This document shows, piece after piece, positions 15,205 through 18,905 of a stretch of 64,000 bases of DNA. Where the stretch lies: contig PMTV01000047.1 of NCBI GenBank assembly GCA_003167215.1, forward strand, positions 1 through 64,000. The letters run 5' to 3'. Each line of letters opens with the position of its first letter. The stretch's first letter is position 1. This DNA is from Acidobacteriota bacterium (lineage in GTDB: Bacteria > Acidobacteriota > Terriglobia > Acidiferrales > UBA7541). Below the pieces are notes generated by a model. That model searched no databases and was not told the origin of the DNA. It was given only the letters and a program-made list of their open reading frames with translations. The position numbers and the translations under genes were made by a program.

Positions 15205-15246
15205 AATGCATTCGTGCGCTGCTGGCACGGAAAAGGGAGAGCGAAC

Positions 15247-15606
15247 ATGGAAGTCGTGAATCTGAATGAAAAGCTATCGAAAGTGAAAGAACGCTGGAGC
15301 CCGAAAATCGTCGGCGAGTTGAACGATTCCTACGTGAAGGTCGTCAAGTTCACGGGCGAATTCGTGTGGCACCATCACGAGAATGAAGACGAGCTATTCC
15401 TGGTGATTAAAGGACGCCTGCGCATGAAATTTCGCGATCGCGAAGCCGTGGTGGCGCCGGGTGAATTCATCATCGTGCCGAAGGGTGTGGAACATCTTCC
15501 GGTCGCGGACGAGGAAGTCGAAGTTGTTCTCTTGGAGCCGAAGACGACGCTGAACACCGGCAATGTGCGGAACGAACGGACGCGCGTCGAACTAGAACGC
15601 TTGTAA
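15247..15606 (+). CDS. Small cupin-domain protein
   Basis: A 119-aa single-domain cupin: motif 1 is FVWHHHENEDELFLVIKG and motif 2 is PGEFIIVPKGVEHLPVADEE, giving three or four metal-binding histidines and a glutamate. I start it at ATG 15247, preceded by an AGGGAG ribosome site at good distance. The function of such stand-alone cupins is not known; relatives are annotated as possible isomerases or dioxygenases. It is 42 bp after the phosphohexomutase. Confidence 0.88.
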   Translation: MEVVNLNEKLSKVKERWSPKIVGELNDSYVKVVKFTGEFVWHHHENEDELFLVIKGRLRMKFRDREAVVAPGEFIIVPKGVEHLPVADEEVEVVLLEPKTTLNTGNVRNERTRVELERL

Positions 15607-15646
15607 ATCGAAAAGCTGTGCGCCCGATGGGGCAGAAAGCAGAATC

Positions 15647-16528
15647 ATGAAGCGGCGACTTTACACACTGGATGTTTTCACCACGAAACGTTTTGCCGGA
15701 AATCCGCTCGCCGTGGTTACTGACGGCGACGGTCTTTCCACCGCGAAGATGCAAGCCATTGCACGCGAAATGAATCTTTCCGAAACGGTGTTCATTCAGA
15801 AGCCCACGAACAATCGCGCGCTGGCCCGCCTGCGCATTTTCACAACTACGCGCGAACTCCCGCTGGCCGGCCATCCGGTGATTGGGACGTGGTTTCTTCT
15901 CGCGGAGTTGGGCGTGGTGCCCGCTTCCGAGGGAAGTGTCCACATACTGCAGCAGACCGGCGCGGGAATTTTGCCCGTTGAGTTCACATTTCACAATGGC
16001 CGGGTAGTGCGCGTCACGATGACTCAGAAGCCGGCGAGTTTCAAACGCGCTCGATTCACACGCGCGGCGCTGGCGGAAACGCTGGGATTGAAACCGAGCG
16101 ATCTCGCAGCTTCACTGCCTCTTGAATTTGTGTCCACGGGAATTTCAAACCTGATGGTGCCGGTGAGCCGGCGCAGCGTGCTTCCTCGCATCCATATGAA
16201 TATGCGCGCACTGGCTCACCTGATTTCCAGCAGCGGCACAATGGCATATTGTTTTGCCTTGGGCGGTCGCGGCCGCGTATTTGCCCGCGGCATGGTTCCG
16301 TGGGGAATCATTGAAGATCCGGCAACCGGCTCGGCAGGCGGGTCGCTCGGCGCCTACCTCGTGCAGCACGGGCAATTGCGCGCATCGGAAGGATTGACGA
16401 TCATGCAGGGAGTCGAAATGGGCCGCCCTAGCGAGATCCAAGTGGAAATTATGGCAGAACGCGGGCGGCTGACTCCCAAAGTGAGCGGTTCAGCGGTGCG
16501 CGTTTTCGAAGGCGAAATCGAAGCCTGA
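15647..16528 (+). CDS. PhzF-family isomerase/epimerase-like protein
   Basis: The 293-aa protein starts KRRLYTLDVFTTKRFAGNPLAVV and has the catalytic glutamate region MNLSETVFI, the TTTRELPLAGHPVIGTWF motif and the C-terminal EDPATGSAGGSLGAYLVQHG loop of PhzF proteins. It folds as two similar halves of the diaminopimelate epimerase type. The substrate is unknown; no phenazine genes are nearby. It lies 40 bp after the cupin on the same strand. Confidence 0.9.
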   Translation: MKRRLYTLDVFTTKRFAGNPLAVVTDGDGLSTAKMQAIAREMNLSETVFIQKPTNNRALARLRIFTTTRELPLAGHPVIGTWFLLAELGVVPASEGSVHILQQTGAGILPVEFTFHNGRVVRVTMTQKPASFKRARFTRAALAETLGLKPSDLAASLPLEFVSTGISNLMVPVSRRSVLPRIHMNMRALAHLISSSGTMAYCFALGGRGRVFARGMVPWGIIEDPATGSAGGSLGAYLVQHGQLRASEGLTIMQGVEMGRPSEIQVEIMAERGRLTPKVSGSAVRVFEGEIEA

Positions 16529-17006: not shown

Positions 17007-17527
17007 CTATGGGGACGCGAGCGAGTTGCACCGCGAACAGAACGTTTCGAGAGTTTGCGCGACAGGTGAGCCATCTCGATGGCGGCAAGCCCGGATTCGT
17101 AGCCCTTATTTCCGCCTTTCAGTCCAGCGCGGTTAATGGCTTGTTCGAGAGTGTCGCAGGTCAACACGCACAAGATCAGGGGCACTCCGGAATCAAGTTG
17201 AGCGAGCTGAATGCCGCGAGCCGTCTCGGACACGACGACATCATAGTGTGAAGTTTCTCCGCGCAGAATGCATCCGATACAGACGATCGAATCGAATCGG
17301 TTTGTGGCCGCCAGTTTCTTGGCGGCGATCGGAATTTCGAAAGAGCCCGGCACGCGCACGATTTCAATCTGTTTTTCTCCAGCGCCAGAACGTTTCAGCG
17401 CGTCCAGTGCAGCAGCAAGCAGCCTGTCAGTAATGAAGTTATTAAACTGGCTAACCACAATTCCGAAGCGCAAGCCTGCTGCGTTGAGTTCACCGCGGAT
17501 CGTGGACACCTTGGACTCACCGGCCAT
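17003..17527 (-). CDS. ribH: 6,7-dimethyl-8-ribityllumazine synthase
   Basis: The 174-aa enzyme makes lumazine from the ribityl-aminouracil and dihydroxybutanone phosphate, the penultimate step of riboflavin synthesis. Motifs: GIVVSQFNNFITDRLL, the substrate loop VRVPGSFEIPIAAKKLA, CIGCILRGETSHYDVVVSE with the catalytic histidine, and GVPLILCVLTCDTLEQA. A short basic tail follows the core. It starts 2 bp after the stop of the 35-codon relic at 17530-17637. Confidence 0.95.
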   Translation of the reverse strand: MAGESKVSTIRGELNAAGLRFGIVVSQFNNFITDRLLAAALDALKRSGAGEKQIEIVRVPGSFEIPIAAKKLAATNRFDSIVCIGCILRGETSHYDVVVSETARGIQLAQLDSGVPLILCVLTCDTLEQAINRAGLKGGNKGYESGLAAIEMAHLSRKLSKRSVRGATRSRPHR

Positions 17528-17529
17528 TA

Positions 17530-17637
17530 TCAGCGCCCCTGAAACTGCGGCCGTTTCCGGATGAACGCGCGCGTACGATTGAAAGCGATTCGCGCAGCCT
17601 GTTCTTTCACCTCAGACAGCAAGTTTTCGTAAGCCAT
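17530..17637 (-). pseudogene. Enoyl-CoA hydratase relic: both ends, no middle (35 codons)
   Basis: A GGGGA ribosome site precedes ATG 17637. The first residues, YENLLSEVKEQAARIAFNR, read like the N-terminus of a crotonase-family enzyme, and the last, TRAFIRKRPQFQGR, like its C-terminus (family pattern: TRAF-hydrophobic-x-KRPPxFxGR). About 220 residues, including the oxyanion-hole and active-site regions, are missing in frame, so it cannot be an active hydratase. It follows a thiolase gene and ends 2 bp before ribH. Assignment is by eye from family knowledge. Confidence 0.65.
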
Positions 17638-17717
17638 AATTTCCCCGGCAAATAATGACGGATTGCGGCCCCGCCATAATAACTGAATCGGGGTGTGATT
17701 GTGCAGGATCGAGCGCT

Positions 17718-18905
17718 TCAGGCGAGCGATTCAACGATGACAGCGATTCCCTGGCCTCCGCCGATGCACGCGCTCGCTATGCCGTAACGCGCGCTGCGAC
17801 GGCGAAGTTCGAGAAGAAGAGTCAGCACCAGCCGGGTTCCGCTGGCGGCCAATGGATGGCCGAGCGCGATTGCGCCGCCGTTTACGTTCGTTTTATCGCG
17901 CGGAAGTTTCAGGATTTTTTCCACCGCGAGGTACTGCGCCGCGAAAGCTTCGTTCACCTCGATTAAGTCCATTTGTTCCAGCTTGAGTCCCGCGAGCGCA
18001 AGCGCCTTTTGGATAGCGGGCACCGGGCCGATGCCCATGATCTGCGGAGGAACTCCAGCGGTGGCCCAGCCGACGATGCGTCCGAGCGGCTTCCATCCGC
18101 GTTCTTTCGCGATTTTTGCATGTGTGACGACAACAGCGGCCGCGCCGTCAACAATGCCACTGGCGTTGCCTGCGGTCACGATACCTTCCTTGCGAAAAGC
18201 GGGTGGAAGGGCTTGCAGAATCGCCATCGTCGTGTCGGGCCGCCGGTGATCATCTTCGGTGACAACGACGGTCTTCTTGCCTTTCTTCACTTCCACCGGA
18301 ACGATTTCGTCTTTCATACGGCCATCCTGTACGGCGGCTTCGGCAGCTTGCTGGCTGCGCAAGGCATATTCATCGCATGCGCTTCGGGTGATTCCCTGCT
18401 CCGCAGCAAGATTTTCCGCCGTCTCGGACATGCTGAAACCGCAATACGTATCGTAGAGTCCCGACACCAGCGAATCCTCGAGCTTTCCTTCGCCCAAACG
18501 AAATCCTGCGCGCGCGCCGCGAATCACGTGCGGGCACTGGGACATATTTTCCATGCCACCAGCCAGGACGAGCTTCGCTTCGCCCAGCAAAACACGCTGC
18601 GCGGCTTGGGTGATCGATTCCATGCCTGAGCCGCACAAACGATTCACGGTGACGGCAGGAGCTTCAATCGGCAACCCGGCTTTCAGTCCCACATGCCGCG
18701 CGCCATAGAGAGCGTCCGCGCTGGTTTGCATCACGTTACCGAAAATCACGTGATCGAATTCCTCGGGATCGGAGCCCGCGCGCTGGACGGCTTCCCGGCC
18801 CGCCGCTGCGCCCAATTCAATCGCACTGGTATTCTCGAACGAGCCCATGTAGCGCGCCATGGGCGTACGCGCCCCCTGCAAGATCACGGCATCGGTTATA
18901 AACAT
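17718..18905 (-). CDS. atoB: Acetyl-CoA acetyltransferase (thiolase)
   Basis: The 395-aa thiolase has the nucleophilic cysteine in VNRLCGSGMESI, NEAFAAQYLAVEKIL, the catalytic histidine in NGGAIALGHPLAASGTR and the second catalytic cysteine in IASACIGGGQGIAV. It condenses or cleaves acetyl groups on CoA; biosynthetic (PhaA/AtoB) and degradative roles cannot be separated by sequence alone. Its downstream partner appears to have been an enoyl-CoA hydratase, now a relic. It starts 12 bp after the TPR-GGDEF gene ends. Confidence 0.93.
   Translation of the reverse strand: MFITDAVILQGARTPMARYMGSFENTSAIELGAAAGREAVQRAGSDPEEFDHVIFGNVMQTSADALYGARHVGLKAGLPIEAPAVTVNRLCGSGMESITQAAQRVLLGEAKLVLAGGMENMSQCPHVIRGARAGFRLGEGKLEDSLVSGLYDTYCGFSMSETAENLAAEQGITRSACDEYALRSQQAAEAAVQDGRMKDEIVPVEVKKGKKTVVVTEDDHRRPDTTMAILQALPPAFRKEGIVTAGNASGIVDGAAAVVVTHAKIAKERGWKPLGRIVGWATAGVPPQIMGIGPVPAIQKALALAGLKLEQMDLIEVNEAFAAQYLAVEKILKLPRDKTNVNGGAIALGHPLAASGTRLVLTLLLELRRRSARYGIASACIGGGQGIAVIVESLA

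Follow-up and report, generated by a model that had tools for sequence, protein, structure and literature searches.

A naturally gutted enoyl-CoA hydratase gene upstream of ribH in an Acidobacteriota bacterium, and its possible role as a leader cistron

Results

Two ends of a hydratase gene lie between thiolase and ribH

The window analysed here is a stretch of 64,000 nucleotides (positions 1 to 64,000 of contig PMTV01000047.1, assembly GCA_003167215.1) from the genome of an Acidobacteriota bacterium, named G000 below. On its minus strand, an intact thiolase gene (17718..18905) is followed by an ORF of 35 codons (17530..17637, ATG to TGA), then by the vitamin B2 gene ribH (lumazine synthase, PF00885; 17003..17527) and by nusB (PF01029; 16602..17006), which overlaps ribH by 4 nt. 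The TGA of the ORF occupies positions 17532-17530 and is followed by 2 bases and by the ribH ATG at 17527. A preliminary description of this DNA had placed a micro-ORF between thiolase and ribH, ending 2 bp before the ribH start, and had read it as the two ends of an enoyl-CoA hydratase (ECH). The coordinates confirm this position, and both termini of the ORF, on the minus strand, match full-length ECHs. The product encoded from 17637 to 17530 consists of 21 residues, MAYENLLSEVKEQAARIAFNR, joined to 14 residues, TRAFIRKRPQFQGR. The first 21 codons (17575..17637, minus strand) are 71-76% identical to the ECH N-termini of the relatives G012, G011 and G010, and the last 14 (17533..17574, minus strand), where the relatives have 15, are 67-80% identical to the C-termini of the same genes. 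In tblastn searches against the fetched loci, codons 1-21 matched the N-terminus of the ECH of G011 with 76% identity (E 4e-7) and that of G012 with 71% (E 4e-6); codons 22-35 matched the corresponding C-termini with 73% (E 0.005) and 80% (E 0.002), respectively.

The full-length ECH genes of the relatives comprise 260 codons, and the remnant has lost 225 codons net, in line with the some 220 missing residues estimated beforehand: codons 22-245 (about 224, in one block) and one further codon in the C-terminal part. By-eye comparison with the DNA of G012, G010 and G011 places the deletion join at 17574..17575 (minus strand). No repeat is visible at the join, the relatives serving as stand-ins for the ancestor and being too diverged to exclude a short one. 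The catalytic part of the hydratase is absent from the remnant. Its 35-aa product matches no Pfam and no NCBIfam model, whereas the intact G011 ortholog matches ECH_1 (PF00378) at 2.3e-69 and has short-chain-enoyl-CoA hydratase as its best NCBIfam model, with a score under the cut-off of that model. Judged from its sequence, the ORF is an ECH by origin and no longer an ECH.

Start, stop and ribosome sites are preserved

As the preliminary description had also proposed, the ORF retains a ribosome site, a start and a stop, and all of these are found in G019, the other genome carrying the remnant. The Shine-Dalgarno-like motif of the remnant, inherited from the ECH start, is CGGGGA (17642..17647, minus strand), and that of ribH is CAGGGGC (17535..17541, minus strand), located inside the three final codons of the remnant; both are identical in G019 and G012. 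Their predicted pairing is -5.7 kcal/mol each and is equal in G000, G019 and G012, a general anti-Shine-Dalgarno sequence having been used for the calculation. A promoter-like site, TGCACA-18-TATTAT (17676..17705, minus strand), recognised by consensus match only, lies between thiolase and the remnant and ends 38 nt before the latter; in the 2.5 kb scanned on both strands, 3 such sites were found vs 0.5 expected. The same hexamers with a 17-nt spacer are present in G019, and by eye the site reads TGCACA-17-TACTAT in G012.

The gap between the stop and the ribH ATG, 2 nt in G000 and G019, is 0 in G012 and 3 in G010 and G011; across the wider family, mostly tens of nt separate ECH from ribH. Since the spacing is tight in the intact loci of G012, G010 and G011, the close apposition of ECH and ribH seems, from these alignments, to be older than the deletion.

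The deletion is inherited and belongs to the loss of a cassette

The locus was compared in 17 relatives from the genus, G015 and G016 having been left out as they gave no ribH match. The order thiolase-ECH-ribH-nusB is found in G012, G010 and G011. In G002, thiolase is followed by the 5' part of ECH only, the contig breaking off there. G019 carries the remnant, and in the other 12 of the 17 both thiolase and ECH are missing from the interval that separates the TPR-GGDEF gene upstream from ribH. The intact orthologs at the same place, together with the partial one of G002, identify the ORF as a gene remnant produced by internal deletion. Outside the genus, 69 genomes of the family were searched, 66 had a ribH match and all 66 loci were compared. 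A full ECH (>55% identity, at least 240 residues covered) lies upstream of ribH in 59 of these 66, usually after Hbd, which we take from its sequence to be 3-hydroxyacyl-CoA dehydrogenase-like. As far as sequence can tell, the interval once held a hydratase, and the in-frame gutting postulated in the preliminary description stands. Two of the 59 loci are odd, G024 with 910 nt between ECH and ribH and G076 with a ribH-ECH fusion. As to the remaining loci, ECH is partial and broken by a contig end in G077 and G036, the contig ends shortly before ribH in G075 and G111, a scaffold gap interrupts G065, and ECH lies 2.6 kb further upstream in G020 (L052). Finally, ECH has been cleanly lost at this place in G085, where ribH begins 18 nt after Hbd and no remnant is left. 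No second in-frame ECH remnant was found among the 66 loci, so that no conserved family-wide purpose is seen.

Several features of these loci were recorded aside from the remnant. In G076 (L154), the first ~59 ribH residues are fused in frame to the ECH body near a common VRV motif and a complete ribH comes next; this could be a real fusion or an assembly chimera. The ECH of G012 (L038:3218-3997, plus strand) has an in-frame TGA at codon 119 (L038:3572-3574), a Cys codon in the relatives, with ACT ATG next in the same frame. Outside this TGA the gene still looks constrained (dN/dS 0.04-0.07), and a recent nonsense mutation, a sequencing error or a stop-restart site are candidates. In G002 (L033:1000-1500), ~480 bp separate thiolase from ECH, vs <100 bp in G012, G010 and G011, and the insert contains by eye a hairpin-plus-T-run and seemingly a reverse-strand small ORF. 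Downstream of nusB, genes provisionally labelled PhzF-like and cupin-like are absent in each of the 12 genus members that lack thiolase and ECH before ribH (L140-L151) and kept in G012, G010, G011 and G019 (L137-L139, L152) and in the window (15214-16528).

In a tree of four neighbouring proteins, G000 and G019 group together with a support of 0.999, G012 is their sister (1.0) and all ECH-bearing members of the genus form one clade (1.0), the deeper nodes of the genus being weak. G019 carries the same 35-codon ORF at the same place, with 89% amino-acid identity. G000 and G019 have in common the join, the loss of one codon and, in FIRKR, a change from E to R, and two independent deletions are rejected on this ground. 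On this comparative basis, it is nearly certain that the net, frame-keeping loss of 225 codons occurred on the branch leading to these two genomes.

The possibility that the deletion is an assembly or scaffolding artefact was considered, since the data are, or look like, metagenome assemblies and since the G019 contig has 2-N scaffold joins elsewhere, which drop 77, 137 and 105 nt. Against it, the join is base-exact and free of N in both genomes, which have 203 differences between them in 5226 aligned bases (3.9%), and in the window it lies well inside the 133-kb contig to which the window belongs. The same join in a genome ~4% diverged rules out an assembly deletion private to this window, which the preliminary description had wished to see excluded, and an artefact is scarcely credible. 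The 2-N joins of G019 (L152) fall in thiolase, PhzF and a gene provisionally labelled phosphoglucomutase-like, and none falls at the remnant; they make thiolase and PhzF seem frameshifted, and an annotation pipeline could call false pseudogenes there.

Transfer of ECH to another place in the genome was likewise rejected. In the 10 genomes searched, no ECH ortholog was found elsewhere in G000 or G019, where the best whole-length matches are 38% identical, which is the level of the paralogs in all 10 genomes; the estimated completeness of 95.7% for G000 and of 73% for G019 is a caveat on the missing ortholog of the latter. Full orthologs are present only in G011, G012 and G010 among these genomes, G002 having the first 63 residues up to a contig end, and the remaining matches are distant, covering part of the protein and not exceeding 48% identity.

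Placed in the family, the thiolase-Hbd-ECH cassette is old; Hbd is missing in the ECH-bearing clade of the genus, and most of the genus is without the cassette at this locus. As read from gene content, the gutting of ECH is one event within a stepwise loss of this cassette before ribH-nusB.

Substitutions, folding and the fate of the peptide

The G000 and G019 copies of the remnant align without indels and show 4 nonsynonymous and 4 synonymous differences (dN/dS 0.30). The neighbouring TPR-GGDEF, thiolase and nusB genes together have 9 nonsynonymous and 66 synonymous changes (Fisher p 0.019 against the remnant); ribH was excluded from this sum because of a divergent tract (11 nonsynonymous and 22 synonymous changes). 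The substitutions of the remnant are not distinguishable from neutral (p 0.11; 8 changes, two copies), and the 4 to 4 pattern suggests that the remnant peptide as such is not tightly kept. This bears on the idea that the stub encodes a functional small protein. The start, ribosome site and stop intact in two species would suit such a protein, but it has no family match, retains nothing of the catalytic part and changes faster than its neighbours. We therefore regard a functional small protein as very improbable.

G000 and G019 both retain the frame, the start, the stop and the two Shine-Dalgarno sites, on a number of positions too small for significance. Plain gene decay has to be weighed here: a chance in-frame deletion would have left a meaningless, drifting stub that awaits removal, ribH would start from its own Shine-Dalgarno and translation of the stub would be irrelevant. 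The fit of the substitutions to neutrality is in agreement with decay, as is the loss of the cassette across the genus, where Hbd is gone from the ECH-bearing clade and thiolase and ECH are absent before ribH in 12 of the 17 relatives; the clean loss of ECH in G085 points the same way. On the other side, the frame has survived both the large deletion and the further one-codon deletion in both species, a weak argument given that chance would achieve it in about 1 case in 9, and both sets of signals are unchanged, which argues weakly as well. Decay is a serious contender to which we give somewhat less than an even chance.

Predictions of RNA folding were compared between loci, G004 and G013 being left out because their ribH start is uncertain. 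The predicted cost of opening the ribH start is 11.6-19.3 kcal/mol in the five genomes bearing ECH or the remnant and 8.7-20.3 kcal/mol in ten genomes without either, with overlapping ranges (Mann-Whitney p 0.20). In G000 and G019 the ribH start region is predicted to lie within a stem, but G012 is predicted to fold differently.

The tract that led to the exclusion of ribH extends over 17362-17573, where 31 of 212 bases differ between G000 and G019 vs 3.9% overall (0/2000 shuffles). It begins right after the deletion join and spans the first third of ribH, with a raised dS of 0.42, and looks like the result of recombination with a diverged relative.

Discussion

A leader cistron for ribH

The elements that survive, namely a promoter-like site, the Shine-Dalgarno and start of ECH, an uninterrupted frame and the Shine-Dalgarno of ribH, together fit a leader cistron for ribH. 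The following sequence of events can be proposed. The ECH gene between thiolase and ribH lost its middle, with the frame kept, in the common ancestor of G000 and G019. The two ends would have stayed because longer deletions would damage signals for transcribing and translating ribH-nusB. On one side these are the promoter-like site and the ribosome site before the ECH start, on the other the ribH Shine-Dalgarno in the last ECH codons. Following transcription, possibly from the promoter-like site, ribosomes entering at the former ECH start would translate across the region where ribH initiates. On terminating 2 nt short of the ribH ATG they would help to start ribH, nusB then being reached through the 4-nt ribH-nusB overlap. 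Translation of the ORF, the coupling of ribH to it and selection for its retention, if any, are putative steps in this scheme.

Several points speak against such a role: the peptide changes fast, a frame is kept by chance for 1 in 3 indels, the ribH start is not clearly costlier to open than in relatives lacking the remnant, ribH might initiate unaided from its own Shine-Dalgarno, the Keio scar of similar length discussed below proved insufficient for most genes, and only two genomes carry the remnant. According to the preliminary description, the remnant may owe its retention to a role in feeding ribosomes into ribH-nusB. The anatomical side of this claim holds, with the 2-nt gap, the ribH Shine-Dalgarno inside the ORF and the 4-nt overlap; retention by selection finds no such backing, since the substitutions fit neutral drift, the predicted opening costs overlap (p 0.20) and other relatives have no remnant at all. 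Taken together, the 35-codon ORF of the gutted ECH, if it acts at all, most likely acts as a short leader cistron of ribH; from sequence evidence, the chances of such a leader role are about even. A stronger version, according to which a single frame-keeping deletion turned an enzyme gene into a dedicated leader cistron and only the job of loading ribosomes for ribH-nusB was selected, is unlikely in our judgement.

Comparison with known systems

The nearest likeness is an engineered one. In the Keio collection of E. coli, excision of the cassette leaves an in-frame scar peptide of 34 residues meant to keep coupling. This length was reported to be too short to bring back the downstream protein in most cases, and peptides of 41 or 60 residues did better (PMC8547470). 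Like the scar, the remnant joins the start to the last codons of the deleted gene in frame, has 35 vs 34 codons and leaves the downstream ribosome site untouched. It differs from the scar in being natural and inherited by two species, with 21 native N-terminal codons and no engineered sequence; its effect on the downstream gene is putative. The natural stub sits at the length limit of the Keio scar, which cuts both ways.

Termination-reinitiation coupling offers a second comparison. Reinitiation requires a short intergenic distance and is almost eliminated by a gap of ~20 nt, and the final 15 nt of the preceding gene were sufficient to support it (PMC10666635). The stop 2 nt before the ATG, the position of the ribH Shine-Dalgarno within the remnant and the 4-nt ribH-nusB overlap resemble this arrangement. 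Coupling has been measured in E. coli and Haloferax, while at the remnant it is suggested by spacing, and the +2 gap lies outside the most common spacings (-4, -1). A 2025 review relates the proposal that short upstream ORFs deliver ribosomes, perhaps as their sole role (PMC12548453). Such ORFs and the leaders of bicistronic designs share with the remnant a short cistron, tight before the real gene, whose product is unneeded; here the cistron would come from a hollowed-out enzyme gene. With bacterial pseudogenes and other gene remnants the locus shares the loss of the enzyme's catalytic body in a lineage that is shedding the cassette; it differs in that two species still have both ends of the gene along with its frame, start and stop. 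Among the titles and abstract openings listed in the literature searched, from which subscription journals were mostly absent, no natural gutted gene serving as leader for the next gene was described, and a precedent may exist.

Significance

A gene in an operon cannot always disappear cleanly, since its ends bear signals used by the gene that follows. At this locus, a single genus contains ECH in the intact and the gutted state and also lacks it altogether in some members, a natural case in which the question of whether translated stubs are kept for the needs of the next gene becomes directly testable. The remnant is also a natural counterpart of the scars of knockout libraries, whose 34-codon stub is reported to be marginal for expression of the next gene (PMC8547470). 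If the conversion of ECH into a leader is true, it would offer a snapshot of short upstream ORFs being born from decaying operon genes.
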